A stretch of 64,000 nt of DNA, from contig JAPKZB010000004.1 of the NCBI GenBank assembly GCA_026393985.1, positions 86,255 through 150,254 on the forward strand. The letters are read 5' to 3'. Positions 41,279 to 64,000 of this stretch are shown here, piece by piece (positions within the stretch are counted from its first letter, which is position 1; each line of letters opens with the position of its first letter). The notes under the pieces are model-generated. The model saw only the letters and a list, made by a program, of their open reading frames with translations. It was not told the DNA's origin and made no database searches. A program made the translations under genes and the position numbers. The DNA comes from Acidobacteriota bacterium (GTDB lineage Bacteria > Acidobacteriota > Terriglobia > Bryobacterales > Bryobacteraceae).

Positions 41279-41310
41279 AGATTCACCCACCAAAATCCTA
41301 TCGCACTCCC

Positions 41311-42219: not shown

Positions 42220-42227
42220 CCCCGCCC

Positions 42228-43616: not shown

Positions 43617-43649
43617 GGGAGAACCCCCATCATACCCGCCCCCCCTCCC

Positions 43650-45556
<1,907 letters not shown>

Positions 45557-45587
45557 ATCTGTCCATAATCGAATAAGCAGCGCCCCT

Positions 45588-46451
45588 ATGTACTCCTACC
45601 CCCTCTGGCTCGCCGCGCTCTCCCTCCTCTTCCTCCTCCTCGAACGCCTCGCCCCCCGCCGCCCCCAACCCCTCCTCCGCCCCGGCTTCTTCACCGACCT
45701 CGCCTACCTCCTCCTCAACTCCGAAGTCGTCGGCCTCCTCCTCGGCCTCCTCACCCTCCGCCTCACCCTACCCCCCGCCAACCTCTTCTCCGCCCTCCCC
45801 TTCCCCCTCCAGTTCCTCACCCTCCTCCTCCTGTTCGATTTCGCCCAATGGCTCATCCATAACCTCCTCCACCGCGTCCCCCTCCTCTGGCGCATCCACC
45901 AGGTCCACCACAGCGCCACCCACATGGACTTCCTCGCCAACTGGCGCTTCCACCCCCTCGAAATCCCCCTCTACCGCGCCTTCCTCTACCCCCTCGCCGC
46001 CCTCTGCGGCTTCTCCCCCGCCGCCCTGTTCGCCTACGGCATTCTCAACACCACCATCGGCCACTTCGCCCACTCCAACCTCCGCCTCCCCCTCGGCCCC
46101 CTCCAATATCTCTTCAATAACCCCCAACTCCACCTCTGGCACCACAACCACCCCGCCGCCGGACCCGTCAACCGCAACTTCGCCATCACCCTCTCCCTCT
46201 GGGATTACCTCTTCCGCACCGCCTATTTACCCCCACCCCACACCAACCAACACCCCGCCCGCCTCGGCTTCGCCGGCATCGAACACTACCCCACCTCCCT
46301 CCCCGGCCAACTCCTCGCCCCCTTCCGCCCTACTTCCCAATCGCCAGCAACTCCTTCGCCGTCCGGTGATACAACCGCTTCCCATCCCACGCCACCGCAT
46401 TCTGACTCCACGTCCGCCCCAACACCCCCAAATCATTCACCCCCAAAATAG
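45588..46451 (+). CDS. fatty acid hydroxylase/sterol desaturase family membrane protein
   Basis: A 287-residue membrane protein of the di-iron hydroxylase superfamily. Histidine clusters are HNLLHRV, HQVHHSATHMD, and NPQLHLWHHNHPAAG, with several hydrophobic helices (LLLGLLTLRLTL, LQFLTLLLLFDFAQWL). The family-like end is around GFAGIEHYPTSLPGQLLAPFRP (about 245). The last ~40 residues (Ser/Pro/Thr-rich) are antisense to the quinoprotein gene and probably result from loss of an earlier stop. It diverges from the esterase with a 31-nt spacer. Confidence 0.87.
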   Translation: MYSYPLWLAALSLLFLLLERLAPRRPQPLLRPGFFTDLAYLLLNSEVVGLLLGLLTLRLTLPPANLFSALPFPLQFLTLLLLFDFAQWLIHNLLHRVPLLWRIHQVHHSATHMDFLANWRFHPLEIPLYRAFLYPLAALCGFSPAALFAYGILNTTIGHFAHSNLRLPLGPLQYLFNNPQLHLWHHNHPAAGPVNRNFAITLSLWDYLFRTAYLPPPHTNQHPARLGFAGIEHYPTSLPGQLLAPFRPTSQSPATPSPSGDTTASHPTPPHSDSTSAPTPPNHSPPK

Positions 46452-48249
46452 CCCGCTCATCCAACACCTTCGCCTCCCCGTCCAACACATACACCGTCCC
46501 CACCGACGTCGTAAAATACACCTTCCCGCCAATCCCCACCGGACTCCCCCAAAACGCCGGCGTCTCCCACCCGTCCATCCGGCTCCGCTCCTCCGTCGCC
46601 ACCTCCTCCCCCGCCGCGTTCTTCGTCTCCGCCCGCAGCGCCACCCCGTAAATCCGCCGCCCCGCCTCATCCACCCCCACCGGCAGCTCCAAATACTCCA
46701 CCTTCCCCGTCCCCACCGCCACCCGCCCCACGCAATACGCCGGACCCGCCCGCCCCTTCGGCGGCTTCCGGTTCCGCCGATGCCCCGTGCTCGTCAGGAA
46801 GTAGTGATATCCCCCCACCACCACATTCGCGTGCCACGCCGGCTGCACCCGGATCACCTCCCCCTCCCCCAACGGCCGCCCATCCCCCACCTCCCGCAAA
46901 TTCACCCCCGCCAGCAACTCATACCGCCCCGTCTCCCGGTTCCACCGCCGGTAATCCACCCCCCGCACCAGCGACTGCTCCTTCACCAGCCGCCCCGTCC
47001 CCGCGTCAATCACCAAATGCGACTCCTCCGGATTCATCCGAAACCAGTACGCATACCGCGCATCCCAATGCATCACATACAACGCCTGCCACGTCGGCGC
47101 CCCCTCCCGCCCATCCCCCGCCACAAACCGCCACCAGCTCCGCCCCGTCCGCGCATCCGTCAAACTCAACCCCACCGGCCCCTCCGGCACCTCGTGCCAC
47201 CCTCCCCGCCCGTGCAGTATCGCCGCCCGCCCCTCCCGCGTCCGCCCCAGCCGCGGCGTGTTGTACGTCGTGGTCCCGTCCTCATTCGTCCACACCAGCC
47301 GCCCCGTTCTCTTGTCAAACGCCCTTAGATAATTCCACCCCTCCCGCTCCCCCGGCTCCACGTTGTAAATCAAATCCCCACTCATCATCGGCTCAAACTG
47401 CTTGTTAAACGGAAACGGCTTCCCCCACGGCTTCCACTGCCGCCGCCATACCTCCCGCCCCTCCCAATCCCAACACCCCATCTCCCCGCTCGCGTTCCAA
47501 AACCACACATGCCGCCCATCCGTCACCGGCGTCGGCGTCGTCGCGTCACTATACGCATACAACATCGGACTCTTCTCCACCCCCGCCAACTCTGCGCTCC
47601 ACAGCGTCCGCCCCGTCCGCGCCTCCACCGCCCACCCCGTCACCCGCCCGCTAAACCCCTTCTCCCCCTTGGCAAACGTCGTAAAAAACAGCCGCCCCCG
47701 CGCCGCCACAATCCCGCTCTGCCCCCCGTTCACCAACTCCCGCCGCCACGCAATATTCTCATTCCGCGCCACACTCCACCGCACCGGCGGCGCCCCACCC
47801 CGCACCGTCCACGTCCCCGCCGGCCCCCCCGCCTGCGGCCAGTCCCCCGCCCACAAACTCACCACCCCCAACAACCCCACACAACCCATCGCCCCCCCCC
47901 GCCCCGCCTTCACCGCCAGCCACCCCCACCCCACCAGAAACGCCACCCCACCCACCGGCGCCACCGCCCCCCAACTCCTCACCCCCGTCACCGCCAGCAG
48001 ATACAACGATCCCGAAAACAACAAAATCCCCCACCCCAACAACCCGCAAATCCGCCCCCCCGCCGCCCCCAACTCCCGCCACCGCCCCACCACCAAAATC
48101 CCCAGAGCATGCACAAAGTGGTAAAACACCGCCTTCTCATACACCCCCATCGCATACTCATCCAGCCGCCCCCGCAGCCCGTGCGCCCCAAACGCCCCCA
48201 AACCCACCGCCAAAGCCAGCAATCCCGCGCCCATCGCACTCCAGTTCAT
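46330..48249 (-). CDS. DUF423 membrane domain fused to PQQ-type beta-propeller protein
   Basis: From the ATG at 48249 the product is 639 residues. The first ~120 form a complete DUF423 (YgdD-like) four-helix membrane protein: LALAVGLGAFGAHGLRGRLDEYAMGVYEKAVFYHFVHALGI. Then, in frame and without a stop, MGCVGLLGVVSLWAGDWPQAGG looks like the signal peptide of a separate quinoprotein-like propeller with W-D/G-K-type blades (GWAVEARTGRTLWSAEL, LRAFDKRTGRLVWTNED, GKVYFTTSVGTVYVLDG). The second part alone resembles a secreted PQQ_like protein. The fusion may be real or may reflect loss of a stop between two genes. Confidence 0.75.
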   Translation of the reverse strand: MNWSAMGAGLLALAVGLGAFGAHGLRGRLDEYAMGVYEKAVFYHFVHALGILVVGRWRELGAAGGRICGLLGWGILLFSGSLYLLAVTGVRSWGAVAPVGGVAFLVGWGWLAVKAGRGGAMGCVGLLGVVSLWAGDWPQAGGPAGTWTVRGGAPPVRWSVARNENIAWRRELVNGGQSGIVAARGRLFFTTFAKGEKGFSGRVTGWAVEARTGRTLWSAELAGVEKSPMLYAYSDATTPTPVTDGRHVWFWNASGEMGCWDWEGREVWRRQWKPWGKPFPFNKQFEPMMSGDLIYNVEPGEREGWNYLRAFDKRTGRLVWTNEDGTTTYNTPRLGRTREGRAAILHGRGGWHEVPEGPVGLSLTDARTGRSWWRFVAGDGREGAPTWQALYVMHWDARYAYWFRMNPEESHLVIDAGTGRLVKEQSLVRGVDYRRWNRETGRYELLAGVNLREVGDGRPLGEGEVIRVQPAWHANVVVGGYHYFLTSTGHRRNRKPPKGRAGPAYCVGRVAVGTGKVEYLELPVGVDEAGRRIYGVALRAETKNAAGEEVATEERSRMDGWETPAFWGSPVGIGGKVYFTTSVGTVYVLDGEAKVLDERAILGVNDLGVLGRTWSQNAVAWDGKRLYHRTAKELLAIGK

Positions 48250-48352
48250 CCTCAAACCATACACCAATCCCACCAGGAAACTGAATCCGTGCAAATTGCG
48301 GAAGCATCTTTACAGGTTGGTTACTGCCGTAACTACCCCAAGGAAAAACCCT

Positions 48353-51300
48353 ATGCCAACTCCGCTCCTCCGCACCGCGGCCGCGCTCCTGCTCAGCACC
48401 GCCGCCCTCTGGGCCCAAACCACCGGCTCCGTCCTCGGCACCGTCTCCGACCCCACCGGCGCCGTCGTCGCCAACGCCAAAATCTCCGTCAAAAACCTCG
48501 CCACCGGCTTCCTCAACGCCGCCTCCACCGGCTCCGACGGCCGCTTCCGCATCCCCCAGCTCCCCGCCGCCAACTACGAACTCACCGTCGAAGCCCCCGG
48601 CTTCGCCCGCTACGTCCAGGGCCCCATCACCCTCCAGCTCAACCAAAACGCCGAATTCCTCGTCAAACTCGAAGTCAAATCGGCCACCGAAACCGTCAAC
48701 GTAACCAGCGAAGCCCCCCTCATCAACACCACCAACGCCGAAGTCGGCGCCAACTTCGACTCCAAGCGCATCGAAGAACTCCCCCTCTCCCCCAGCCGCA
48801 ACATCCTCAACGCCGCCCTCTCCGTCGCCGGCGTCGCCCAAATGTCCTCCGGCAACTCCAGCTTCACCTCCGGCGGCGTCTCCTTCTCCGTCAACGGCAT
48901 GCGCCAGCGCTCCAACAACTTCGTCGTCGACGGCTCCGACTCCAACAACCCCTCCGTCGGCGGCCTCCAGCAGGAGATCAACAACCCCGACACCGTCGCC
49001 GAATTCCGCATCATCACCAACCAGTTCCTCCCCGAATACGGCCGCGCCGCCGGCTCCGTCGTCTCCATCGTCACCAAAAGCGGCACCAACGAAATCCACG
49101 GCACCGCCTTCTGGTACCACAACAGCAACCGCCTCAACGCCCGCTCCAACGTCGAAAAGCTCTCCGGCTTCACCCGCGCCCCCTGGCGCATTGAAAACCA
49201 GTTCGGCGCCACCCGCGGCGGCCCCATCGTAAAGAACAAAACCTTCTTCTTCGGCTCCCTCATGCGCTGGACCGACCGCCAGTTCGCCGCCGGCACCGCC
49301 ATCCAGGGCGCCCCCACCGAAGCCGGCAAAGCCCTCCTCCGCCCCCTCGCCGCCGGCCGCCCCCAGCTCCAGGCCCTCCTCGACTTCCTCCCCGCGGCCG
49401 GCATCGCCGGCGGCGCCCCCGCCACCGTCACCGCCGGCGGCCAAACCCTCTCCATCCCCACCGGCACCCTCGCCGGCGCCCAGCCCGCCCTCCTCAACGC
49501 CTGGCAGTGGTCCGCCCGCGGCGACCACCGCTTTAACGACAAACACACCCTCGGCGGCCGCGTCCTCGTCGACACCCGCACCCAGGTCAGCGGCCAGTCC
49601 GTCCCCCCCGGCCTCACCTCCTCCTCCCCCACCGACCGTAACGCCGCCAACCTCTTCCTCAACTCCTCCCTCTCCGCCTCCGTCTTCAACGAGTTCCGCA
49701 CCAGCTTCCAGCGCGTCGTCTCCGTCACCACCGCCGCCGACGCCCGCGCCCTCGCCATCCCCTCGTTTGAAGTCTCCGGCCTCGGCCTCAGCGGCTTCAA
49801 CGCCGCCACCAGCCGCACCGCCATCGGCCTCGCCGTCAACCTCCCCCAGGCCCAGGCCGTCACCAACTACCAGATCATGAACAACTTCTCCTGGTTCCGT
49901 GGCACCCACTCCTATAAAGCCGGCTTCGACTTCCGCCGCCTCGACCAGAATCAGGACTTCAACCCCACCATCCGCGGCCGCATCGCCTACTCCACCCTCC
50001 AGAGCGTCATCGACGACCTCCCCATCAACGCCTCCATCAACTCCTTCCTCCCCGGCGTCGGCCGTTGGCAGGCTTACCGCTACTACGACTACTTCTTCTT
50101 CCTCCAGGACGAGTGGCGCATCCGCCCCAACCTCACCATCACCTACGGCCTCCGCTACGAAACCCCCGGCAACGCCTTTAACTTCCTCCAGGGCGTCAAC
50201 ACCCGCGTCGTCGCCGCCAACAACAACAACCCCGACTTCCGCGTCGACCCCGCCCCGCCCCGCGACCGCAACAACTGGGCCCCCCGTTTCGGCTTCAACT
50301 ACCGCTTCGGCAGCGCCCCCGGCCTCCTCGGCAAGCTCACCGGCAACCAGAAACTGGTCCTCCGCGGCGGCTACTCCCGCACCTACGACCTGATCTTCAA
50401 CAACATCTACCTCAACATCTATAGCGCCTTCCCCTTCACCATCGTCAACAACTTCCCCGCCGGCCAGCCCGGCGCCTACCAGCGCATCCAGGACATCGCC
50501 CAGGGCCGTGTCACCCCCGGCCCCACCAACCCCGCCCAACTGCCCCGCACCATCGTCGACTCCAACTTCCGCGCCCCCGTTGTCGAGCAGTTCGCCTTCC
50601 AGTTCCAGCGCGAACTCGCCCGCAACTGGGTCCTCACCACCGGCCTGGTCTCCACCAAGGGAACCGCCCTCTTCCAGACCCTGGACGGCAACCCGACCCT
50701 CCCCACCACCAACAACTTCGGCGGCGCCGCCAACCCGGTCGTCCGCGTCAACCCGGCGCGCGGCCCGATTCGCCACCGCGCCAACGCCGCCTCCTCCATC
50801 TACCACTCCTGGCAGACCTCAATCGAAAAGCGCCTCTCCCAGAACTTCGCCATCGGAGCCCACTACACCTGGAGCGCCTTCATTGACGACGCCTCGGAGA
50901 TCTTCAACCCCTCCGTCGCCGGCGAGATCGCCGTCCCCCAGGACAGCTTCAACCGCCGCGCCGACCGCGGCCGTTCCACCTACGACCGTCCGCACCGCTT
51001 CACCACCAACTTCACCTACGAACTCCCCTTCCTCCGCAAGCAGGAAAACGCTGCCGGCCGCATCCTCGGCGGCTGGATGGTCTCCTCGCTGATCAGCTTC
51101 CAGAGCGGCCCGCCCTTCACCCCGCTGAACGGTTCGGACCCCGGCCGCCGTCTCTCGGGGATTGACGCCCTGGTTGGCACCTCCATTCGTCCCAACCTGA
51201 ACACGAACCTCGATCTGTCGAGCATGGACATGCGCCAGATTCGCAGCGCCGGCCAGTTTACGGGAGGGGTCTTCAACCTCTTCTCCCTGGTCAATGCGGC

Positions 51301-51556
51301 GAACCCGATGGGCAACGTGGGCCGCAACGTCCTGCGCGCGGACGGCATTAACAACGTGGACATTGCGTTGAAGAAGGTGGTGCGTCTCCCCTGGGAGAAG
51401 CACACGTTTGACATCCGCGTGGACTTCTACAACCTGACGAACACCCGCGACTACGGCATCCCGCAGGCGAACGTGAACAACGCGGGCTTCGCCAACGAAG
51501 GCCTGACGGACGGAGGCCGCCGCCGAGTCCAATTCGGCCTCCGCTACGCCTTCTAA
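48353..51556 (+). CDS. TonB-dependent receptor, third Oar-like copy
   Basis: From the ATG at 48353 (AAGGAAAA about ten bases upstream) the product is 1067 residues with a signal peptide (AAALLLSTAALWAQ). The carboxypeptidase-regulatory domain (GSVLGTVSDPTGAVVANAK), plug (VVSIVTKSGTNEIHGTAF) and barrel ending RRRVQFGLRYAF are complete. The C-rich bias of the strand fades after about 50.6 kb within this same gene. A hairpin terminator candidate follows at 51592-51626. The ligand is unknown. Confidence 0.92.
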   Translation: MPTPLLRTAAALLLSTAALWAQTTGSVLGTVSDPTGAVVANAKISVKNLATGFLNAASTGSDGRFRIPQLPAANYELTVEAPGFARYVQGPITLQLNQNAEFLVKLEVKSATETVNVTSEAPLINTTNAEVGANFDSKRIEELPLSPSRNILNAALSVAGVAQMSSGNSSFTSGGVSFSVNGMRQRSNNFVVDGSDSNNPSVGGLQQEINNPDTVAEFRIITNQFLPEYGRAAGSVVSIVTKSGTNEIHGTAFWYHNSNRLNARSNVEKLSGFTRAPWRIENQFGATRGGPIVKNKTFFFGSLMRWTDRQFAAGTAIQGAPTEAGKALLRPLAAGRPQLQALLDFLPAAGIAGGAPATVTAGGQTLSIPTGTLAGAQPALLNAWQWSARGDHRFNDKHTLGGRVLVDTRTQVSGQSVPPGLTSSSPTDRNAANLFLNSSLSASVFNEFRTSFQRVVSVTTAADARALAIPSFEVSGLGLSGFNAATSRTAIGLAVNLPQAQAVTNYQIMNNFSWFRGTHSYKAGFDFRRLDQNQDFNPTIRGRIAYSTLQSVIDDLPINASINSFLPGVGRWQAYRYYDYFFFLQDEWRIRPNLTITYGLRYETPGNAFNFLQGVNTRVVAANNNNPDFRVDPAPPRDRNNWAPRFGFNYRFGSAPGLLGKLTGNQKLVLRGGYSRTYDLIFNNIYLNIYSAFPFTIVNNFPAGQPGAYQRIQDIAQGRVTPGPTNPAQLPRTIVDSNFRAPVVEQFAFQFQRELARNWVLTTGLVSTKGTALFQTLDGNPTLPTTNNFGGAANPVVRVNPARGPIRHRANAASSIYHSWQTSIEKRLSQNFAIGAHYTWSAFIDDASEIFNPSVAGEIAVPQDSFNRRADRGRSTYDRPHRFTTNFTYELPFLRKQENAAGRILGGWMVSSLISFQSGPPFTPLNGSDPGRRLSGIDALVGTSIRPNLNTNLDLSSMDMRQIRSAGQFTGGVFNLFSLVNAANPMGNVGRNVLRADGINNVDIALKKVVRLPWEKHTFDIRVDFYNLTNTRDYGIPQANVNNAGFANEGLTDGGRRRVQFGLRYAF

Positions 51557-51915: not shown

Positions 51916-52821
51916 ATGAGCGACCTAAAACTATTCCGAAACACGTCAAACACCATAACCGAGATCCGCAGTGACTCGGTGGAGCTTGAGAAGTCATTAC
52001 AGACGCTCATCGAGTCGAATCTCGACGTGATGCTTGGCGTTCGCTTCCTCGTTTCGGAATACGCTACCGGCAAGACACATGGTGGAAGAATCGACACGCT
52101 TGGCATCGACGAGAATGCCTGTCCAGTAATCATCGAATACAAGCGCGCGATCAACGAGAACGTGATCAACCAAGGGTTGTTCTACCTGGATTGGCTTCTC
52201 GATCACAAAGCTGAAGTGAAGCTCCTAGTGATCGACAAGTATGGCCGTGAAGAAGCAGACCGCATCGACTGGAATGGCAGCCGGTTGCTATGTATCGCCG
52301 CCGACTTTACGAGATACGACGAGCACGCGGTTCAACAGATCAATCGCAACATCGAACTGATCCGTTACAGGAGGTTCGGGGCAGATTTGCTCTTATTGGA
52401 ACTCGTCAATGCTGTAACGGTCAAAACCGCTGAAGCGAAGCCACCCAAGTCGCAGGAGAAGCGCTCAACGGACAAGACCGTCACTGAAAGCTTGGCGGCA
52501 CTTCATGGACCGCTTTTGGACGTCTTTGAATCACTCCGAGCGTTTCTCTCGGCGCTCGGTGACGACGTGCAGGAGAAGCGTCTGAATCTTTACATAGCGT
52601 TCAAGCGCCTGAAGAATTTTGTTTGCATCGAGATTCGCAAGGACAAGCTAATGCTCTACCTTAAACTTGACCCTGAGTCCGTCGCGATGGAGAAGGGATT
52701 TTCGCGCGATGTCCGATCGATTGGACACTGGGGAACGGGTGATCTGGAGTTAACGATTCGCAGCGAACAAGACCTTGAGAAAGCGAAGCCACTTTTGGTT
52801 CGGAGCTATGGAAATGCCTGA
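51916..52821 (+). CDS. DUF91-type PD-(D/E)XK nuclease-like protein with DUF5655-like tail
   Basis: A 301-residue protein. The N-terminal ~175 residues have a nuclease-like core: a leading helix (ELEKSLQTLIESNLDVMLGVRFL), then GGRIDTLGIDENACPVIIEYKR, which supplies the D and the E-x-K of a PD-(D/E)XK fold. A Ser/Lys-rich linker follows and then a DUF5655-like domain (VQEKRLNLYIAFKRLKNFVCIEIRKDKLMLYLKL). Related proteins accompany restriction and defence loci (family knowledge). It lies 63 nt upstream of the methylase pair and could be a nuclease or regulatory subunit. Confidence 0.78.
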   Translation: MSDLKLFRNTSNTITEIRSDSVELEKSLQTLIESNLDVMLGVRFLVSEYATGKTHGGRIDTLGIDENACPVIIEYKRAINENVINQGLFYLDWLLDHKAEVKLLVIDKYGREEADRIDWNGSRLLCIAADFTRYDEHAVQQINRNIELIRYRRFGADLLLLELVNAVTVKTAEAKPPKSQEKRSTDKTVTESLAALHGPLLDVFESLRAFLSALGDDVQEKRLNLYIAFKRLKNFVCIEIRKDKLMLYLKLDPESVAMEKGFSRDVRSIGHWGTGDLELTIRSEQDLEKAKPLLVRSYGNA

Positions 52822-52884: not shown

Positions 52885-53529
52885 GTGAAGTCGAAGCAAA
52901 GGGTCGCCGACCATGGCGAGGTGTTCACCCCGGAGTGGCTGGTTGAGGCGATGCTGGACCTGGTCAAGGCCGAGACCGAGCGCATTGATTCGCGCTTTCT
53001 GGAACCAGCCTGTGGCAGCGGCAATTTTCTCGTCAAGATTTTGCAGCGCAAGCTCGCCGCCGTCGAACTCAAGTTCGGTAGATCTGATTTTGAGAAGAAG
53101 CAGTATGCGCTGCTCGCTCTGATGTGCACCTATGGAATCGAGTTGCTCGAAGACAATATCGCCGAGTGTCGCATGAACATGCTGGAAATTCTAGCTGACT
53201 ACCTAAAGCTCGAAGAATCGGATGAATACTATAGGGCAGCAGCATATGTGTTATCGCTGAACATCGTCCATGGCGACGCCCTGAAGATGTGCACAAGCGA
53301 CGGAAAAGCGATCATTTTCGCTGAGTGGGGTTACCTGGGCAAGGGCAAGTTTCAACGCCGCGATTTCAACTTGAACACGTTAACTCTCTCGTCATCGTTC
53401 AGCGCCGAAGGTTCTCTCTTTGCTCATCTGGGAAAGCAAGAGATCTTCATGCCGACAAAGACCTACCCGACCATGACGATCGGCGAATTGGCCGCTTCAC
53501 TGGGTGATCGGCCCAAGGAGGTCGCATGA
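52885..53529 (+). CDS. N-6 adenine DNA methylase-type subunit (lacks NPPY)
   Basis: A 214-residue protein with GTG start at 52885 and a GAGGAG-like site upstream. It has the Type I/II M-subunit opening (GEVFTPEWLVEAMLDLV) and SAM motif EPACGSGNFLVKIL, then MCTYGIELLEDNIAECRMNM and HGDALKM. The catalytic N-P-P-Y motif is absent, so on its own it should not methylate adenine. The companion protein encoded next has NPPY but a less typical SAM motif. It may therefore be one half of a split enzyme or a non-catalytic subunit (inference). Overlaps the next gene by 4 nt. Confidence 0.8.
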   Translation: MKSKQRVADHGEVFTPEWLVEAMLDLVKAETERIDSRFLEPACGSGNFLVKILQRKLAAVELKFGRSDFEKKQYALLALMCTYGIELLEDNIAECRMNMLEILADYLKLEESDEYYRAAAYVLSLNIVHGDALKMCTSDGKAIIFAEWGYLGKGKFQRRDFNLNTLTLSSSFSAEGSLFAHLGKQEIFMPTKTYPTMTIGELAASLGDRPKEVA

Positions 53530-55133
53530 GTACTCAGGCAAATTTCGTCTTGCGCGGAAGAAACCCTGACGTCCTGACGTGTATCGCTAACCTCTCCAAC
53601 GACGAGGTGTTTACGCCGCCTGAGTTCGCGAACAAAATGTTGGATTTAGTAGCGAACACATGGGCTGCCAACAACAAGGGCGTAGACATCTGGACGAATC
53701 CATCGGTGAGTTTTCTCGACCCGTTTACGAAATCCGGTGTGTTTTTGCGCGAGATCACCAGCCGCCTGTCGAAGGGCCTGGAGAAGCGGATTCCCGATCT
53801 TCAGGAGCGAGTTGATCACATCCTTACCAAGCAGGTTTTTGGAATCGGTATTACACATTTAACGAGTCTCTTGGCGAGACGAAGCGTCTACTGCTCGAAG
53901 CACGCAAATGGACCGCATTCAATCGCCTCAAAGTTCACCAATGATGCAGGCAACATCTGGTTCCAACGCATGGAGCACCGGTGGGCAAAGGGAAAGTGCA
54001 CCTATTGCGGGGCAAGCCAGCAAGCCCTGGATCTGGGCGAACGGCGTGAAACCCACGCTTATGCTTTTACACACACGGACAATATTCAGGCTCGGATGGC
54101 CGAGCTGTTTGGAGGAGATATGCAATTTGACGTAATCATCGGAAATCCCCCGTACCAATTGGACGATGGCGGTCACGGTGCAAGCGCCGCTCCCATCTAC
54201 CAGTTGTTCGTGGAGAACGCGTTGAAACTTGATCCGCGATACGCGGTGTTTGTGACTCCTTCGCGGTGGATGGCAGGCGGCAAGGGACTCGACAAATACC
54301 GGGCACGAATGCTCGCCGACAAGCGCATGCGAGCAATTGTCGACTATCCGAAGCTTTATGAGGGATTTCCTGGTGTGAAAATTCGCGGCGGGATTTCATA
54401 CTTCTTGTGGGATCGAGATCACAACGGGCCATGCGGAGTGCAGACAATCTGGGATGGGAAGCCAACAGGGCCAGTTGTTTCCCGCTACCTGGATGCCTTT
54501 GATGTCTTGGTTCGGCGCAACGAGGCTGTGCCCATTCTGGAAAAGATCAGAGCGAAGAAGGAGCCAACGCTTGAGGCCCGCGTTTCAAGCCAAAAGCCGT
54601 TTGGCTTGCGCACCTTCTTTCACGGCAAACCCGACCCGAAGAGCCTCAAGAACCCCGTCAGACTTTTCGGGTCTCAACGGGTCAGCTGGGTCAATCGCTC
54701 AGAGATCCCAACGAACGAACACTGGATTGACAAGTGGAAGGTCCTGATGACTCGTGTCCAAGGCACCAGCGCTGCCGTAGAGACGAAGTTTCTCAGCAAG
54801 CCAATAATCGCAGAGCCCGGCACCGCCTGTACTGAAAGCTATCTCGTGGCAGGCATCTTCGATACCGAAAGCGAAGCGATGAACTATGCGAGTTATCTGA
54901 GCACACGGTTCGCGCGCTTCCTCGTGTCACTCCGAAAGTCTACCCAGGATGCGCCAAAGAATGTTTACGCTTTCATCCCGGATTTGCCGCTTGACAAGCC
55001 TTGGACTGACGAAATGCTATACAGGCGCTATGGTCTGACCAGAGAGGAGATCAACTTCATCGAATCGCAGGTTGCTGAACACAGTATGGATTTGTTCGAC
55101 GAAGCGCCTTCGGACGACATCGACGATGAGTAA
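53526..55133 (+). CDS. Eco57I-type DNA methyltransferase domain protein
   Basis: A 535-residue protein with GEVFTPP-like opening (NDEVFTPPEFANKML), a SAM-motif variant DPFTKSGVFLREI, a zinc-type CTYCG segment, and the catalytic N-P-P-Y in DVIIGNPPYQLDDGGHG. Then come YAVFVTPSRWMAGGKGLDKYR and FPGVKIRGGISYFLWDRD. The long C-terminal half probably recognises DNA. The layout resembles Eco57I/Type IIG-type methylases (family knowledge). Its stop overlaps the helicase start (ATGAGTAA), so methylase and helicase-nuclease are coupled. Confidence 0.88.
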   Translation: MSTQANFVLRGRNPDVLTCIANLSNDEVFTPPEFANKMLDLVANTWAANNKGVDIWTNPSVSFLDPFTKSGVFLREITSRLSKGLEKRIPDLQERVDHILTKQVFGIGITHLTSLLARRSVYCSKHANGPHSIASKFTNDAGNIWFQRMEHRWAKGKCTYCGASQQALDLGERRETHAYAFTHTDNIQARMAELFGGDMQFDVIIGNPPYQLDDGGHGASAAPIYQLFVENALKLDPRYAVFVTPSRWMAGGKGLDKYRARMLADKRMRAIVDYPKLYEGFPGVKIRGGISYFLWDRDHNGPCGVQTIWDGKPTGPVVSRYLDAFDVLVRRNEAVPILEKIRAKKEPTLEARVSSQKPFGLRTFFHGKPDPKSLKNPVRLFGSQRVSWVNRSEIPTNEHWIDKWKVLMTRVQGTSAAVETKFLSKPIIAEPGTACTESYLVAGIFDTESEAMNYASYLSTRFARFLVSLRKSTQDAPKNVYAFIPDLPLDKPWTDEMLYRRYGLTREEINFIESQVAEHSMDLFDEAPSDDIDDE

Positions 55134-57675
55134 GTCTATCGACGAAATCCTAGCGCCAAAGCCAAAGGCGCGGCCGCGAATCTACGCGTATTCGATCAAA
55201 GACGACGCCCATAAGGGGCTGCTCAAGGTTGGACAAACAACGCGCGACGTGAAGCAGCGTATCGCCGAACAACTGAGATCTGCTGCGATTAAGAACTACA
55301 CCATCGAGTTGGATGAACTCGCTGATCGCGACGACGGCGGAATCTTTACAGACTACAGTGTTCGCTCAGCTCTTACGAAGAAGGGTTTTGAGAACGTCGA
55401 GCTTGAATGGATGCGTTGCTCGGTCAAAGACGTGAAGACAGTCCTGACCGAGTTGCGAACCGGCCAGCAGTTTTCTGGAACCCATCACGAGACGTTTCCC
55501 ATGCGCAGGGAACAGGCCGAGGCCGTCGCTAAGACAATCTCGTACTTCAGATCGATCTGGACAGAAGATCAGAACGCGGCCCCACGGTTTCTTTGGAACG
55601 CGAAGATGCGTTTTGGCAAAACATTTACTTCGTATCAACTAGCGAGACAACTCGGAGCGAAGCGTGTGCTGGTGCTCACGTTTAAGCCCGCCGTGGAAGA
55701 CGCATGGCAGACGGATCTTGAGTCGCACATTGACTTCGATGGCTGGACGTACCTTTCGCGGAACTCGGATGGGGACCCACGAAACGTAAGCCGAGAGACG
55801 CCCCTAGCCTACTTCGGATCTTTCCAGGATCTCCTTGGGCGAGATTCTGCTGGGAACATCAAACCCAGGAACGAATGGGTTCACGAAGTGAACTGGGATC
55901 TGGTGATCTTCGATGAGTACCACTTCGGCGCGTGGCGCGAAACTGCCAAGGAACTCTTTGAGGGCGAGGAGGAAGCGGTATTCAAAAAAGAAGCGAAGCT
56001 TGAGTATGGCTCTGGCCTTGAGGATGTGAACGAAGACCTGAGTGAGCTTTCGGAGAAGGAAACTGAGTTCCTGCCCATCACAACCAGAGCCTATCTCTAC
56101 CTCTCGGGAACACCGTTTCGAGCACTGGCAACGGGAGAATTCATTGAAGAGCAGATCTTCAATTGGACATACACCGATGAGCAGAGGGCCAAGGAGGAGT
56201 TTGCCGCGCAGAATCCAGGAGCGTGGAATCCATATGGTTCGTTGCCGCAGATGCGACTCCTTACCTACCAGATGCCAGATGAGTTGCTTGCCATTGCTAG
56301 TGCTGGTGAGTTTGATGAGTTCGATCTGAACGCCTTTTTCGAAGCGACCGGCAGAGGCAAAGCGGCGCAGTTCAAACACAAGAGCGACGTACAGAAATGG
56401 CTCGACATTATTCGTGGCGGATACACCTCGAAGGCTGTTGAGCATCTCAAGACCGGGACGCGTCCACCCTTCCCGTACTCTGACACACGGTTGCTTCCAT
56501 ACCTCCAACATTCGTTCTGGTTTTTGCCTAACGTCGCTGCTTGTCATGCGATGGCGAACCTGTTGAGCGAGAAGCAGAATGTTTTCTGGCTTGACTACGA
56601 TGTGGTGGTGTCCGCAGGGACCTCCGCCGGCGTAGGCTTGGAGGCTCTGCCGCCAGTTAGGAAGGCCATTGGCAGCGGATTCGAAGCCAAGACGATAACA
56701 CTTTCCTGCGGCAAGCTAACCACCGGCGTAACCGTACCGCAGTGGTCATCGATTCTAATGCTGCGCAATCTCAAATCACCTGAGACGTACTTTCAAGCGG
56801 CATTCCGAATTCAGTCGCCCTGGTCCATCAAGAATCCAAACGGCGACAATCCAAACGAAGAGGAGATTCTAAAGCCCGTCTGCTTCGTCTTTGACTTTGC
56901 GCCAACTCGCGCTCTTCGGCAGCTCTCCGAGTATGGAATCGGTCTCTCACCCAATGAGCCCAACCCTGAGAACGCGGTGAAGGATCTCGTGTCGTTTTTG
57001 CCGGTGCTGGCATATGACGGTGCAAACATGACGCAGATTGATGCAGGCGGAATCCTTGACATCGCGATGGCCGGAACATCGGCCACGCTCCTAGCGCGGA
57101 AATGGGAAAGTGCGCTCCTAGTGAATGTCGATAATGATACCCTAAGGCGCATCATCGATGATGCAGAGGCCATGGCGGCAGTCCAGAGGATAGAGGGCTG
57201 GCGCGCACTCGGCGACAACATCATCCACACTATCATTAATAAGAGCGAGAAAGTGAAGGATCTAAAAACCAAGGCAAGGACGGAGGATTTGACACCAACG
57301 GAGAAAAAAGAACTCAGTGCAGAAGAAAAGGAATACAAGTCTAAGCGCAAACAGGTGCAAGAAAAGCTTATCAAATTTGCCACCCGCATTCCCGCTTTCA
57401 TGTACCTCACCGACTTTCGAGAGAATACGCTCCAAGATGTCATCACAAAACTTGAGCCAGACCTTTTCCAAGCGGTGACGGGCCTAACGGTAAAGGACTT
57501 CCACCTACTGGTGAAACTGAAAGTTTTCAACACGGAACAGATGAATCAAGCGGTGTTTGCATTCCGGCGTTATGAGGATGCCTCCCTGCGATACACCGGA
57601 ATCGACAGCCATCCTCATTTAGGCCACTACGGCCTTTACGACACAGTCGTTGCCAAGGACCACACCCACCCTTGA
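55126..57675 (+). CDS. GIY-YIG (MUG113/T5orf172-type) nuclease fused to SF2 helicase
   Basis: From the ATG at 55126 the product is 849 residues. The N-terminus (about 15-110) is a GIY-YIG domain of the MUG113/T5orf172 type: RIYAYSIKDDAHKGLLKVGQ, followed by a conserved Arg in DVKQRIAEQ. Then an SF2 helicase: MRFGKTFTSYQ (P-loop variant), VIFDEYHFGAW (DEYH), YLYLSGTPFRAL, and later CGKLTTGVTVPQW and AFRIQSPW. It probably is the restriction enzyme of the locus, cutting DNA lacking the methylation made by the upstream gene (inference). A long helical C-terminal region (about 700-800, Lys-rich) follows. Confidence 0.85.
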   Translation: MSKSIDEILAPKPKARPRIYAYSIKDDAHKGLLKVGQTTRDVKQRIAEQLRSAAIKNYTIELDELADRDDGGIFTDYSVRSALTKKGFENVELEWMRCSVKDVKTVLTELRTGQQFSGTHHETFPMRREQAEAVAKTISYFRSIWTEDQNAAPRFLWNAKMRFGKTFTSYQLARQLGAKRVLVLTFKPAVEDAWQTDLESHIDFDGWTYLSRNSDGDPRNVSRETPLAYFGSFQDLLGRDSAGNIKPRNEWVHEVNWDLVIFDEYHFGAWRETAKELFEGEEEAVFKKEAKLEYGSGLEDVNEDLSELSEKETEFLPITTRAYLYLSGTPFRALATGEFIEEQIFNWTYTDEQRAKEEFAAQNPGAWNPYGSLPQMRLLTYQMPDELLAIASAGEFDEFDLNAFFEATGRGKAAQFKHKSDVQKWLDIIRGGYTSKAVEHLKTGTRPPFPYSDTRLLPYLQHSFWFLPNVAACHAMANLLSEKQNVFWLDYDVVVSAGTSAGVGLEALPPVRKAIGSGFEAKTITLSCGKLTTGVTVPQWSSILMLRNLKSPETYFQAAFRIQSPWSIKNPNGDNPNEEEILKPVCFVFDFAPTRALRQLSEYGIGLSPNEPNPENAVKDLVSFLPVLAYDGANMTQIDAGGILDIAMAGTSATLLARKWESALLVNVDNDTLRRIIDDAEAMAAVQRIEGWRALGDNIIHTIINKSEKVKDLKTKARTEDLTPTEKKELSAEEKEYKSKRKQVQEKLIKFATRIPAFMYLTDFRENTLQDVITKLEPDLFQAVTGLTVKDFHLLVKLKVFNTEQMNQAVFAFRRYEDASLRYTGIDSHPHLGHYGLYDTVVAKDHTHP

Positions 57676-57867: not shown

Positions 57868-58743
57868 ATGAGCAGCCTTACATACACACTCCCCAAACGA
57901 ATAAACCTCAAGGCCAGCACTGAGTATACAGAGGCTTGGGTACAGGCCAAAATCGCCGAAACGCCCTCGATTTTAGGACTCGGCGACCTAACGGTGATTG
58001 GAAAGGAGATCAAACAGCCCCGAGCCGGCCGATTCGATCTTCTACTGGTGGATTCGGAATCAGGAAAACGCTATGAAGTTGAAGTGCAACTCGGCCCCAT
58101 AGACGAATCCCATATAATTCGCACTATCGAATACTGGGACCTCGAACGAAAACTATATCCGCAATACGAACATTGTGCCGTCATAGTAGCAGAACACATC
58201 ACGAGTCGCTTTTTAAACGTAGTAAGTCTGTTTAACAGCGCCATTCCCCTGATCGCGATTCAACTGTATGCCTTCAAAGTCGAACAGCACTTATCGCTTG
58301 TATTCACAACCGTCCTTAGTGAAACAAGCAGGGGCAGACTAGAACCAGACACAACTACGCCCTCTGCCAACAGAGAGTACTGGCTAAAAAAGGCCGCCAA
58401 GAACACTGTAGACGCCGCCGATAGTCTTGAATCCCTTGTGAAAGAGATGGATCAAACACTTAAATTGAACTACACCAAGGGGTACATCGGCTTGTCCAAT
58501 CAGCACAATATTGCGAACAACTTCTTAACAATTCAGCCCAATAAAAGCGGCCTTGTGCTCTCTATCCGACTTGAACAGATTGACTCCTTAGAGGATCGAC
58601 TTAGCCAAAGCACCTTGGATACCATTGGTTACGATCGGACGTCCAATTGGTACAGGATTCGCCTGACGCCACAAGATGTTAATAGCTACCAAGACTTGTT
58701 ACGGACCATGATAGGGCAGGCGTGGACAGAATGGAACGATTAG
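57868..58743 (+). CDS. PD-(D/E)XK-like nuclease of unknown system
   Basis: A 291-residue protein. The N-terminus resembles a RecB-like nuclease: WVQAKIAETPSILGLGDLTV, AGRFDLLLVDSESGKRYEVEVQLG and a following helix, giving D in RFDLL and E-x-Q instead of the usual E-x-K. The C-terminal half has a helical, then beta layout that I do not recognise. It starts 193 nt after the helicase stop and ends 116 nt before the GHKL gene. AT-rich composition and orientation make it part of the same acquired region; whether it belongs with the restriction genes or the next two is open. Confidence 0.65.
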   Translation: MSSLTYTLPKRINLKASTEYTEAWVQAKIAETPSILGLGDLTVIGKEIKQPRAGRFDLLLVDSESGKRYEVEVQLGPIDESHIIRTIEYWDLERKLYPQYEHCAVIVAEHITSRFLNVVSLFNSAIPLIAIQLYAFKVEQHLSLVFTTVLSETSRGRLEPDTTTPSANREYWLKKAAKNTVDAADSLESLVKEMDQTLKLNYTKGYIGLSNQHNIANNFLTIQPNKSGLVLSIRLEQIDSLEDRLSQSTLDTIGYDRTSNWYRIRLTPQDVNSYQDLLRTMIGQAWTEWND

Positions 58744-58859
58744 TGCTCGCGGGCCCGCGCAACAGATACCATCACCTCTAAAGCCGGTCGGTGAATCACA
58801 GCGTTTTACCTCAAAGCAACTAGTCATCAACGATTGATCGTAAGTCTGACCATTGATCC

Positions 58860-60050
58860 ATGAACCAAAGAATCTCATTTGAGTCTCAGCACAGCATCCA
58901 AGGCATCGAATCCGTCCTGAAAGCCATCGAAGCAAACCCAGGTGCACGACTTCTCGTGCAGACGAAGCTACCGAAGCGTCACTTCGGCGTAGATGCTGCC
59001 TTAATCCAAGCCCTGATCACATGGAAACGACGAGGCGGATCACACCTCGAGGTTTATCGTGCGACGGACGCTGCAAAATCAATAGAAGGGCTCATCCGTA
59101 CCGACCACGGACTTGTTGCCCTAATTCTTGCAGAAACGCTCCTTTTAAGTGGCACCCTCACAGAACTCACCATTCCCCGCGAATCCCTATATTCGAGGTT
59201 AAATCAAGCCGTTAACGAGAACGTCAAACGTGGCCCCAAGTTATTTTTTCTTCTAAAAGACCACAGACGGTCCGTCGAAAACCTTACTCCGCTATACTAT
59301 CCAGCAGAAGACGCTGACCAAGGGATGCTTCTCCAACATGAGTTCACGCAGCTGATGAGACAACAACTTTATAACGCTCTGATTGCTGTCAAGACAATAC
59401 CCAAAGACCACCCAATAGTCACAACTTTACTACCACCAATTTGCACCGTTTTATTCGAACTGTTCGAGAACACTCACAGGTGGGCACGGACGGATGCTAA
59501 CTTGAACCCGTATGCGTTAGGCCTGCGGGCAATACGGGTTGAAGTACACCGAAATGATATTAACAACCTGCGGACACAATCCACTCTCTCCGGACCGATC
59601 CACCACTACCTTGCAAATAAACACTTTGATCACATCAGTGAGCAGGTCCGACTCCTCGAAGTTTCAGTACTTGACAGCGGTCCCGGACTGGCGGCCAGAG
59701 CCTTGAAGCGTAACCTTACACCGCAGGACGACTTAAATACAGAGATTGACGCAGTCGAAAGCCGTTTCCACCTCCACAGGACTAGCAGCGGAGCAACTCA
59801 TCGAGGGAAAGGCTTGCCTGCAATACTCCAAATTCTCTCCGAACATCAAGGATTTCTCCGCGTCCGTACTGGACGACTCAACATATATCGAAATTTTATC
59901 GACCATCCATATGCGGGTTCTCCAGACTATACTCATGCTGGGGCACCACTCTTCTCCGACTGGAGCGGAAACGCAGCAAAGACCACCCACGCCCGGGCCG
60001 AGGGCGTTTTGATAACTTTTATCTTCCCGCTAAGCCACCTTCTCTTCTAG
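58860..60050 (+). CDS. GHKL ATPase of unknown system
   Basis: A 396-residue protein with all three ATP-binding boxes of GHKL proteins: N-box E200-x3-N204 (ELFENT), G1 box D272-S-G-P-G, and G2 box G316-K-G-L-P, and a final GVLITFIFP strand. There is no histidine-phosphotransfer helix and no transmembrane segment, so it is not a classical sensor kinase. The N-terminal ~150 residues form an alpha/beta region of unknown type (ARLLVQTKLPKRHFG). The next gene starts only 8 nt after its stop, so the two are co-translated. Confidence 0.78.
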   Translation: MNQRISFESQHSIQGIESVLKAIEANPGARLLVQTKLPKRHFGVDAALIQALITWKRRGGSHLEVYRATDAAKSIEGLIRTDHGLVALILAETLLLSGTLTELTIPRESLYSRLNQAVNENVKRGPKLFFLLKDHRRSVENLTPLYYPAEDADQGMLLQHEFTQLMRQQLYNALIAVKTIPKDHPIVTTLLPPICTVLFELFENTHRWARTDANLNPYALGLRAIRVEVHRNDINNLRTQSTLSGPIHHYLANKHFDHISEQVRLLEVSVLDSGPGLAARALKRNLTPQDDLNTEIDAVESRFHLHRTSSGATHRGKGLPAILQILSEHQGFLRVRTGRLNIYRNFIDHPYAGSPDYTHAGAPLFSDWSGNAAKTTHARAEGVLITFIFPLSHLLF

Positions 60051-60058
60051 GACCTACT

Positions 60059-62269
60059 GTGGAGTATTTCATCTTCAATGTAACTGACGAACAACACGGC
60101 GCATCTGCCGTAACGACCACGACGGTTGCATTTTGCCCCTCCCCGGACGCAGCCCCGGAAAGCCTCAAGAGCGCACTAAAGGCTTTTTTCGACCACACAG
60201 TTCCGACAGATAACGTTTTGCTTCTTGGGCCAGAAGGCTTAGAAAGCACTCTCCAAACGCTGAGCACCGATTCGTTCATAGTAAACGCGCTTCCGCATTA
60301 CACGCAGCTAACCGCCCAACAAAAGATCCACACAAATACGATCAGTAGTAATAACATCCACACGAAGACCACTAAGGAAAAGCCGGGCACTGGCAAACTT
60401 CCAACATTAAACCAGATCCGCGAGACGGGGCTCCGCCATTTGGTCGAAAAACACCATGCATTGATTGATGCGAATCCCCACTTTCACTACCAGAAAAACA
60501 ACACCACCCACACTGACAAGTTCCTTCGAACAGCAAATCTGTTGGTACACGGCCCGGAGATAGCTTTTATCGCTTCATGGATCGCCCCTTATATCACCGA
60601 CAAGACACACTTCATACTAACCGACACCCCGGCGATCCACGCCCTAGCCTACGCTGCCGTTGCGATCAAGAAAACACTTATTCCAACGCTTAAGTCTCCA
60701 GTGATTGACAGCTTTGGGTCTTATAGCGGCATAGACCAGTTTACATTTCGACAAGACCACCTTGTAATTATATCCGCCTCGACTAGCGGAAACTTACAGC
60801 AACGTCTTCTGCAAAAGAGCAAAACCAAAGAGGATACTATGGTCACAGTGCTGCACAATGGCGAAACATTACCGTCGGGCCACCTCCTATGCCATCTGAA
60901 TCCAAAAACTTTTACGCAAATTGAAAACCACAAGGCTTCAAGCTGTGCCATGTGCAAAAGGGGAGTTCCGTTGATAATCATCGCTGGCGACCACTTTATT
61001 CCAGAAACGCCACCTGTGAAAGAGGTGGTCCTATTGAATACGGACTCCTCCACTGAATTAAGAACGTTTCTCAAAAAGATTACCTTAAAGAAACTGATCA
61101 AAATTAACAAGGCGGTCCATTCGGACGCACAGAAACCGAACGAGGTATTTATTGATGCAGCAAACTTTCTGACGGCCATACAGTCCGCACCAAACCAAGA
61201 ACTCGAAAGAATTCTCTACAAAATACCTGCTACAACCAACCGAATAATCCATGTCGACGATGAGGGATCGCGCACACTAGCCGAGCATGTCCAAACCGTG
61301 ACCTCATCTTACACAAATAGAACTATCACAATATTGAACGCGAGCGAGATTTTTGTAAATCCACATGCCTACACCTCTCAAACAGGAACAACGCTTGTTG
61401 TAGCCAGCTCACTAAGCACTGGCCGAGACCTACTCCCAATTAGCCAAATCCTGAGGATAATTCAGGAAAACCAAAGCATTTCATATTTGGTCGGAATTGC
61501 TCGCGCACGGAACAAGAGCAGCTTAGATCAACTTTGTAGCAATTTGCAATTTGGTGAACGCCCCAAGCAGCATAGCCTGCATATCGTCGAACGAGTTTTT
61601 CTACCCGCCGAGCACGCGCTACACGCGAACGCATGGGAGATGGAAAATGACTTTCTTTATTACTGGGAAAAGCAAAATCTTTCAGGTGACCTCCTCAACG
61701 TCGTAAGAGATCGCTTGAAGCAAATAGAAACGGACGGCGGCGCCAGCGGACTGCAAGATGCATTGTTTTGGCCGTCTTCGGGGGGGAGTACGCTGAAGCT
61801 AACTCCGAAGTTTGCATTGTGGGACCACGATTACACACAAAATTCACCAAGCCAGTCAGACGTCTATCTTACGATTACTGCAATTCTTCACTACCTGCGT
61901 GAAGGCATGGGACGGTTGAAACCGTGGTCGCAGAATCACTACAACAGACATGTCATTAGTCCAGATAATTTTTACCGCTACAACGACGGGGTAATCCAGG
62001 CTAGCCTACTTCGGGCAGCACATCCGAGTGAACTAGATTATCAATCAGACCTACCAGCAAGCCGACGAATGCTTGATTGGATCCTTTTTTCAATCTCGAA
62101 CGGCAACGTTGTCTACGAAAGTGCTTTAAAAGAATTCTTGCTTTCCCTAGCCATCGGCAGATTACAACTCCACAAGACGCACCATGAGGAGGTGATTCGA
62201 GCGCTAGAAAACCAGCCGGATTCAACTTTAGGTTTCTTCCTGCACGCATTGCAACATCCGCGCAACTGA
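60059..62269 (+). CDS. two-lobed phosphoribosyltransferase-like protein of unknown system
   Basis: A 736-residue protein with GTG start at 60059, AGGAC a few bases upstream. Two regions look like PRTase folds. The first has FILTDTP (186-192), then LVIISASTSGN (235-245) and an unusual C-x2-C (296-299) beside GVPLIIIAGDHF. The second has RIIHVDDEG (395-403), then VVASSLSTGRDLLPI at about 447-461, where S-T-G-R recalls the PRPP-binding loop (D-D-x-x-(S/T)-T-G). The C-terminal ~230 residues are helical and have no known match. Likely substrates are nucleotides or PRPP (inference). It forms a pair with the GHKL ATPase. Confidence 0.65.
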   Translation: MEYFIFNVTDEQHGASAVTTTTVAFCPSPDAAPESLKSALKAFFDHTVPTDNVLLLGPEGLESTLQTLSTDSFIVNALPHYTQLTAQQKIHTNTISSNNIHTKTTKEKPGTGKLPTLNQIRETGLRHLVEKHHALIDANPHFHYQKNNTTHTDKFLRTANLLVHGPEIAFIASWIAPYITDKTHFILTDTPAIHALAYAAVAIKKTLIPTLKSPVIDSFGSYSGIDQFTFRQDHLVIISASTSGNLQQRLLQKSKTKEDTMVTVLHNGETLPSGHLLCHLNPKTFTQIENHKASSCAMCKRGVPLIIIAGDHFIPETPPVKEVVLLNTDSSTELRTFLKKITLKKLIKINKAVHSDAQKPNEVFIDAANFLTAIQSAPNQELERILYKIPATTNRIIHVDDEGSRTLAEHVQTVTSSYTNRTITILNASEIFVNPHAYTSQTGTTLVVASSLSTGRDLLPISQILRIIQENQSISYLVGIARARNKSSLDQLCSNLQFGERPKQHSLHIVERVFLPAEHALHANAWEMENDFLYYWEKQNLSGDLLNVVRDRLKQIETDGGASGLQDALFWPSSGGSTLKLTPKFALWDHDYTQNSPSQSDVYLTITAILHYLREGMGRLKPWSQNHYNRHVISPDNFYRYNDGVIQASLLRAAHPSELDYQSDLPASRRMLDWILFSISNGNVVYESALKEFLLSLAIGRLQLHKTHHEEVIRALENQPDSTLGFFLHALQHPRN

Positions 62270-62829: not shown

Positions 62830-64000
62830 TCAATTACCCACAATCTGCCGAGCCGCCAAGAAGCCGGCGTGGAGGTCGTTCAGTTTCCGGAAGCCGCGCC
62901 AGATCACCATGTTGCCTGGTGGTGAATCATTCTTTCTGGCAAGATAACCGCCCAGCTTGGCGACTTTACGTAGATAGTACTGCAATGTGAATGACCGTGA
63001 TTCCGAAGGGCTGTCCTTGACGAAATGATCCAGTACCTTCTGTTCCGTTTCTGTAAAGACAAGGGACGGCGAGGCCTCTTTGTCTTCCCGTTGGTTCATG
63101 GTCAACCAGAAAACTCGCCAAGCGATGATACAGAAGATAGCAAACAGGTTAGTCAGTCGCTCCGCTGTTCGTAAGTGGGACTGCTCGGCTCGGCATCCGG
63201 ACTTGAGAACCTTATGAAACACCTCAATCTTCCAGCGCATTCCGTATCGCGCTAGCTGACAGACGGCTGCCTTCAAATCATCAACCGGAAGGTCCGTAAG
63301 CAACTTCCAGTCGATCCGCTCTCGATTCTCAGGTGCCTTGGTTTCGTAGGCGTGAATGGCGGTCACCGTCATCGTCGGGTACCGTTTCTGCTTGCCCTCC
63401 GGTGGATGCAACAGGAATCGTTGGAACTTGATTTCCAGGACCGCCTCCGCTGAATTGCCGTCCTGGTCAGGCACCCTGATCCGGTGTTGCCCTTGCGACG
63501 GGATCGTCGCCATTTGCTCGGAAATGCAGACTCGATTGGGGCCGCTGCGTCGATCCACACAAGTTCGAACCAGGAAGTGGGTTCCCTCCTCTTGAGCGGC
63601 GCAGAACAGTTCGTAGATATCGCTTTCGCGGTCGCCGATATGCAAGCATTGGGCGGGTTGGCCCAATAGGCGAGTGGAAGCTTTCACATTTTCGATCCAG
63701 CGAATACTCTCTTTGGTTTCGATGGGAATTCGCGTCGGATTGACGTGGCGCTTCAGTGCGTTCGTCCCCTTGAATTTCTTGCGGGTCCAGAACTTTGCCG
63801 CGCATAGGCCCAACGGGAGACCTTTTGCCGTAAGAGCCAGATTGGAGTGTAATAGCACCCACAGGTAGTTACCTCCGGGGTGACATAGGATCGGCCCGAA
63901 CGTAAGCTTTTGAGGAGGCCAACGGGCGCCGGATTGTCCCGCTTGACCGAGAACTCAGTTGTGTCATGTAAGACTAGGATCAATCCATCCTGACTGGCGC
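62830..64000 (-). mobile_element. IS4-family transposase, frameshifted and cut by window end
   Basis: The frame from 63858 to 62830 gives 342 residues: LPLGLCAAKFWTRKKFKGTN, then HIGDRESDIYELFCAAQE (the DDE-type second Asp), VDRRSGPNR and YGMRWKIEVFHKVLKSGC, the Y-(2)-R-(3)-E-(6)-K box of IS4 transposases. A second frame from 63983 supplies the N-terminal part LVLHDTTEFSVKRDNPAPVG. The two frames are joined by a shift near 63870-63900, so the transposase is probably inactive. The 5' end lies outside the window; the left terminal repeat should be within about 62800-62830. Confidence 0.85.

Follow-up and report, generated by a model that had tools for sequence, protein, structure and literature searches.

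Defence that reads the dTTP pool is known from Clover, which consists of the dGTPase CloA and the nucleotidyltransferase CloB (PMC12265719). A GHKL ATPase is hypothesised to control the effector of type I-D Shedu (VcSduA; PMC12137116), phosphoribosyltransferases (PRTases) occur in the Ter conflict system (PMC7824862), and DefensePredictor includes a validated PRTase-bearing system together with a predicted HATPase system (PMC13092281). The present analysis concerns two adjacent genes, here named A and B, which encode a stand-alone GHKL ATPase and a predicted tandem PRTase-like protein. They are located in a stretch of 64,000 nucleotides (nt) of an Acidobacteriota bacterium (contig JAPKZB010000004.1, positions 86,255 to 150,254, assembly GCA_026393985.1, 5.9 Mb in total), referred to as the window. 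A and B almost certainly represent one co-inherited two-gene unit, and this unit is likely an uncharacterised anti-phage system.

Clover likewise comprises two genes, which encode different proteins; at an E value of 1, A and B show neither an HD hydrolase nor a nucleotidyltransferase domain. VcSduA is described as one protein with a DUF4263 nuclease, whereas A and B are two proteins; DUF4263 gave no match at E 1 in A, B or the open reading frame (ORF) upstream of them, ORF1. The Ter system resembles the proposal made here for A and B in employing PRTases in conflict, and differs in that its PRTases are proposed biosynthetic enzymes within a multi-gene system. The comparison with SpoIIAB, an anti-sigma factor and kinase, differs on the side of the partner, as A is paired with a 736-residue PRTase-like protein, neither a sigma factor nor a separate STAS protein being its partner. 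The predicted folds of the B domains are like those of PyrR and of the orotate and adenine PRTases, from which B differs in joining two different PRTase-like domains in tandem with a conserved C-terminal domain.

A and B as one unit and its catalogue identity

Relatives of B numbered 140 in a profile scan of genome contigs; 80 of them were retained and, together with one viral contig, form the survey of 81 loci. The preliminary description of the window had staked its proposal on the two genes being neighbours in unrelated genomes, and A is indeed found, across several phyla, immediately upstream of B on the same strand at 78 of these 81 other loci, while in the remaining three B begins within 310 nt of a contig end. 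Three of the 78 show A incompletely, namely at a contig edge (L005), interrupted (L034) or short (L079). The gap between the genes has a median of -4 nt and lies within 10 nt in 70 of 78 cases. The whole genomes examined number 40 (40 of the 80 genome loci) and were selected because they contain B; in them A adjoins every copy of B and no unpaired A was seen, whereas 14 control genomes carry neither gene. A is likewise present in ten of the 11 plasmid records that have B, the eleventh (L096) being a B remnant. Two further viral contigs detected with the A profile carry B as well, and no B was found in phage records. A distant subfamily of A with other partners was also considered, but the queries for it (P0077, P0082) matched only known A-B plasmids and two plasmids of R. 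leguminosarum (NZ_CP018231, NZ_CP016292). The distance matrices of A and B correlate with r 0.96 over 75 loci, a value that none of 2000 permutations reaches. Adjacency, paired genomes, plasmid carriage and correlated distances thus make it almost certain that A and B are inherited together. Decaying copies were also seen, with A interrupted in L034 and L083 and B split over two frames in L091.

The preliminary description knew of no named system with the trio of ORF1, A and B. By its profile matches the pair is already catalogued as the PADLOC candidate PDC-M65: A matches PDC-M65A (E 8.3e-48, residues 4-392 on positions 3-394 of 398) and B matches PDC-M65B (E 1.2e-135, residues 2-732 on positions 3-756 of 763), in both cases nearly full length, and Pfam, NCBIfam and PHROGs give weak matches or none. 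PDC stands for phage defence candidate, and PDC-M65 is said to originate from a 2024 preprint by Payne et al. The concern that the pair might match a described system is therefore borne out as far as a catalogue label goes and not as regards a published description: for PDC-M65 no function, domains or validation were found, no paper naming it or describing a GHKL-PRTase pair was found in the literature searched, and no ThyX- or PRTase-linked defence pair like A-B is described among the literature matches listed. A term search of Kaur et al. 2020 (PMC7159879) returned neither PRTase nor GHKL. It can be argued weakly, from the absence of E. coli DNA matches to two Pantoea pairs, that A-B may be distinct from the PRTase-bearing and HATPase systems of DefensePredictor (PMC13092281).

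Domain composition of the two proteins

Protein A is composed of an N-terminal alpha/beta domain and a GHKL ATPase domain. The ELFEN, DSGPG and GKGLP boxes that had been read by eye are all present, and their seven key residues are identical in every aligned relative (Table 1), so that the boxes are not due to chance. A shows the N, G1 and G2 boxes of the GHKL superfamily, and its AlphaFold model displays the Bergerat fold in a SpoIIAB-like domain, with SpoIIAB itself as the top structural match. Pfam recognises no kinase-type partner domain, in agreement with the label of a stand-alone GHKL protein. The N-terminal domain alternates between strand and helix in the model, an order like that of STAS. 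A profile comparison of residues 1-124 with a rough alignment of 20 STAS sequences gave no similarity, so that a STAS identity is not supported by it. Matches of A to PHROG 3364 (E 0.0049) and of the A profile to TNFAIP8 (E 0.0011) were taken as chance. Residue 302 (59763-59765) is a cysteine in 92 of 95 relatives and an arginine in the window protein.

Protein B very probably carries PRTase folds, as judged from its AlphaFold model, which contains two of them and thereby agrees with the fold expected for the 736-residue protein. The better PRTase rows of the Foldseek search have a probability of 1.00, its sole match below 1e-3 is a UMP synthase (3qw4_C, 4.5e-5), and the VIA rows are PRTase-fold chains among the matches listed. 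The two halves of B align weakly in register (P 0.001 global, 0.008 local). Unlike PyrR and the orotate and adenine PRTases, B lacks acids at both phosphoribosyl pyrophosphate (PRPP) loop positions, assigned by motif rather than by superposition: none of 92 homologues has an acidic residue at 237-243 or 447-452, and acids occur beyond the expected acid pair at 453 and 454 in 11 and five of 92. Because both loops are acid-free throughout, PRPP chemistry is probably absent from B, and the earlier suggestion that it serves as effector is not upheld. S239 and D189 are each conserved in 92 of 92 homologues. The D-D-x-G, S-T-G-R and C-x2-C boxes noted previously are all present, the first two as DDEG at 400-403 (D401 in 79 of 92) and STGR at 453-456 (G455 in 85 of 92), but the D-D-x-G box, which in the model comes directly after an earlier strand of PRTase-like domain 2 (residues 393-398), did not hold up as a PRPP-binding motif. 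The C-terminal domain contains a long, strongly conserved stretch, in which D643, G644, I646, Q647 and L651 are each found in 91 of 92 homologues.

A sugar-isomerase (SIS) fold was considered for B on account of its STSGN string and GlmS rows with a probability of up to 0.89, and set aside for the better PRTase rows; a sub-threshold Glyco_transf_8 match (E 0.0099) was taken as chance. The top rows of a viral fold search were mostly large unrelated proteins with a query template modelling (TM) score below 0.2, interspersed with a few rows for viral UMP synthases and PRTases.

Genomic context of the pair

Loci with B come from Planctomyces, from many Bacteroidota, from alpha-, beta- and gammaproteobacteria, and from one metagenome-assembled genome of the Obscuribacterales. 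B is rare and scattered. It is present in one of 396 genomes of the phylum of the window (the window's own), in one of 397 sampled from the order to which a Rhizobium genome belongs (the one being that Rhizobium genome), and in seven of 395 sampled from the phylum of a Bacteroidota genome. Five of these seven match at E <1e-100, and two of those five had already been included in the loci.

The expectation that the pair would be found near other defence genes agrees with an enrichment of type I restriction: within 12 kb, 8 to 11 of 41 B copies have an HsdR, against approximately 0.4 expected. The domain HSDR_N is found above cut-off near 6, 8 and 8 copies within 10, 12 and 20 kb (expected 0.35, 0.41 and 0.65) and at E 1e-3 near 9, 11 and 11 copies (expected 0.39, 0.46 and 0.73); the distances were chosen after the places had been seen, and the excess is present at all three. 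Besides A and B, the largest clusters of neighbour genes are present at 11, 10 and 8 loci, and their gene lengths are those usual for HsdR, HsdM and HsdS. Six of the 136 immediate neighbours match type I restriction endonuclease models and four match HsdS models, and Schlafen, TIR, SEFIR and UvrD proteins are further found among the matches listed (25 of 100 families). Second neighbours (n=130) include N6_Mtase (5), Phage_integrase (4), Cap4 nuclease (2) and reverse transcriptase (2) among the matches listed (25 of 102 families). Some neighbours are housekeeping genes, for example of glycine cleavage, as is expected at the edges of islands. On the Pseudomonas plasmid pBJ86 (L087) a Qat-type operon with annotated qatC and qatD follows some 400 nt downstream of the pair, and in another plasmid region the pair is located near TIR genes and dgt. 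Overall, a role of A-B in defence is likely.

A thyX gene lies beside the pair at six Rhizobiales loci, three of which were detected by phmmer in the 81 loci and three in 12 plasmid regions; five share a common gene order. In all three whole genomes with the link the linked ThyX is the only ThyX, and it is an accessory enzyme since ThyA is encoded elsewhere in each. The Bosea ThyX shares 63-64% identity with the other linked ThyX proteins, and the Bosea B 33% with the B proteins of Rhizobium and Mesorhizobium, which together with the different gene order suggests from sequence comparison that the link arose in at least two events. At the Obscuribacterales locus (L029) a dUTPase gene (1385-1861) ends 24 nt upstream of A; this linkage is known from L029, and the search for dUTPase covered part of the loci. 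The L029 genome encodes another dUTPase elsewhere and is the only one of 15 chosen genomes with two dUTPase matches below 1e-20, three others having a weak second match. dUTPase makes dUMP, which ThyX converts to dTMP. On the basis of these products a link of A-B to pyrimidines or dTMP is proposed as possible, and both linkages point to the sensing of nucleotides rather than of DNA, the two options entertained beforehand.

In the window, A (ATG start) and B (GTG start) follow the 291-residue ORF1, and the coordinates agree with three plus-strand genes, the last two 8 nt apart (Table 1). The lower GC content ascribed to this DNA is likewise observed, with 0.47-0.51 between 57 and 62 kb against mostly 0.60-0.72, minimum 0.56, in the first 51 kb. 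Owing to the methyltransferase genes, the T5orf172/ResIII helicase and the PDC-S18 protein upstream, the pair lies in a restriction-rich patch. A single type IIG restriction-methylase model (PDLC03626) is matched at its front by the helicase and at its end by the second methyltransferase, as if they were a split enzyme of this type. GC skew on the plus strand is strongly negative at 18000-35000 and 41000-51000 (mostly -0.3 to -0.58), and the second block is at least partly one long ORF (48296-51556) that looks TonB-type receptor-like by eye.

Table 1. Features of the window and thyX genes linked to A-B elsewhere (the latter with their locus). Conservation is given as the number of homologues. 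pLDDT, predicted local distance difference test; pTM, predicted TM score.
Feature	Position	Strand	Remark
PDC-S18 protein	51916-52821		upstream of ORF1
Methyltransferase genes (2)	52885-53529, 53526-55133		upstream of ORF1
T5orf172/ResIII helicase	55072-57675		upstream of ORF1
ORF1, 291 residues	57868-58743	+	neighbour, judged outside the unit; no phmmer match near 81 other pairs
Gene A, 396 residues	58860-60050	+	PDC-M65A
A, domains			N-terminal alpha/beta, residues 1-124; GHKL ATPase, residues 125-393
A, N box E200-L-F-E-N204 (ELFEN)	59457-59471	+	E200, N204 in 95/95
A, G1 box D272-S-G-P-G276 (DSGPG)	59673-59687	+	D272, G274, G276 in 95/95
A, G2 box G316-K-G318 (in GKGLP, 316-320)	59805-59813	+	G316, G318 in 95/95
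Gene B, 736 residues	60059-62269	+	ORF; PADLOC PDC-M65B; model pLDDT 90.3, pTM 0.84
B, layout			two PRTase-like domains between an N-terminal and a helical C-terminal domain
B, PRTase-like domain 1, residues ~118-300	60410-60958	+	nearest in model: orotate PRTase
B, domain 1 PRPP-loop position VIISASTSGN	60764-60793	+	acid-free; S239 in 92/92
B, C296-x2-C299 (CAMC)	60944-60955	+	candidate metal site; 87/88 at each position (88 sequences without a gap here)
B, PRTase-like domain 2, residues ~332-515	61052-61603	+	nearest in model: APRT, PyrR, HGPRT
B, domain 2 PRPP-loop position VVASSLSTGR	61397-61426	+	acid-free at 447-452
B, C-terminal helical domain, residues 525-736	61631-62266	+	VIA rows hardly reach it
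B, motif P635..FxRxNDGxIQA..LLR..Y661	61961-62041	+	R640, R652 in 92/92
Transposase, Tn5-type domains including dimerisation domain	62830-63858	-	just downstream of the pair
thyX upstream of A	L062 7493-8479		
thyX upstream of A	L068 7552-8490		
thyX upstream of A	L086 5487-6425		
thyX upstream of A	L092 5540-6478		
thyX upstream of A	L093 5538-6476		
thyX downstream of B	L042 12128-13063		

Proposed mechanism and alternative explanations

PyrR reads UMP, and B may function in a similar way. Starting from the co-inherited unit, its conserved residues, the restriction enrichment, the GHKL motifs and the acid-free loops as observed, and from the folds as predicted, it is tentatively proposed that A-B is an anti-phage pair in which a nucleotide-sensing, disarmed PRTase-like B is gated with ATP by A. 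The two proteins would form a complex; infection would shift pyrimidine deoxynucleotides (dUMP, dTMP, dTTP or a phage-modified pyrimidine), the PRTase-like domains of B would read this shift as PyrR does for UMP, and the ATP state of A would set the threshold. Delivering or relaying the response that halts phage growth or the cell could then fall to the conserved C-terminal domain of B, while the accessory ThyX of the Rhizobiales and the second dUTPase of the one Obscuribacterales genome may sustain dTMP, which would shield the host or define the trigger level. A more specific version, in which a tandem pseudo-PRTase reads thymidylate supply and a stand-alone SpoIIAB-like ATPase fires it, ThyX or dUTPase being the built-in antidote or dial, is doubtful.

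A number of observations weigh against this proposal. The search for unpaired A is confined to genomes that hold B, 72 A-relative proteins are found elsewhere, and a further plasmid (L085) carries A with a 73-residue B stub beside an IS4-family transposase gene. Foldseek returned no match below 1e-3 for A. The PRTase assignment of B derives wholly from predicted structure: Pfam detects no Pribosyltran domain at E 1 in the window protein or at E 0.1 in an 11-member set (A1), a PDB profile search found no PRTase match, and profile-profile comparison with PRTases gave no support, a weak negative given that several comparison profiles contained wrong-frame ORFs. No obvious defence gene was seen in 6 of the 11 plasmid regions. 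phmmer did not find thyX at 78 of the 81 contig loci, the five loci with common gene order may be one event, and in three other Alphaproteobacteria ThyX lies on another contig with no ThyA (L059) or ThyA is present alone (L037, L077); linkage to ThyX or dUTPase is a minority feature that could be incidental.

The same linkage can be explained without a sensor if B, as the effector, acts by depleting or blocking pyrimidine or thymidylate nucleotides, with A as its licence and ThyX or dUTPase as self-protection rather than tuning. The linked enzymes produce dUMP and dTMP, the linked ThyX comes in addition to ThyA, and nucleotide depletion is a known strategy of defence, as described for Clover (PMC12265719). 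This explanation is nonetheless unlikely, as no Pfam hydrolase domain above cut-off is found in B, its PRPP loops look non-catalytic, and thyX is seen at only six of 93 loci viewed (81 by phmmer, 12 plasmid regions by annotation). Were B instead a working PRTase, using PRPP to produce a signal or to modify a target, its two predicted folds would be accounted for and the strict S239 and D189 could mean an unusual active site, in line with the signal-making proposed for Ter PRTases (PMC7824862); the acid-free loops in all homologues make this improbable.

The similarity of A to SpoIIAB, its best structural match, and the STAS-like order of its N-terminal domain would also suit a partner switch or stress-response regulator which merely happens to be located in islands. 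This too is improbable, given that STAS has no profile support from the rough alignment and that a mobile defence unit accounts better for the sporadic distribution, the carriage on plasmids and the enrichment of HsdR. The preliminary description had further envisaged a trio with ORF1 as nuclease, which is scarcely credible: ORF1 lies on the same strand 116 nt upstream of A and weakly matches PDC-S18 (2.5e-7), but phmmer, run up to an E value of 10, detected no relative in the gene calls around the 81 other pairs, and ORF1 is for this reason excluded from the unit. Its PD-(D/E)XK label was a motif read by eye and went no further, the best matches being PDC-S18 and a DUF5655 hit of 18.5 bits (below the cut-off of 24). 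A paralogous relationship of ORF1 to the upstream PDC-S18 protein was considered and dropped, the BLAST match (E 0.11) not being useful.

The A-B pair, catalogued yet undescribed in the literature searched, is a ready candidate for validation as a new system, and for the ATP-gated, nucleotide-sensing pair proposed here the accessory thymidylate synthase and dUTPase give the question of what is sensed or attacked a concrete point of entry for tests. PRTase folds belong to the core of nucleotide salvage. Their occurrence in an apparently disarmed and doubled form, tied to an ATPase in mobile defence islands, suggests the reuse of a metabolic enzyme as a sensor of infection.

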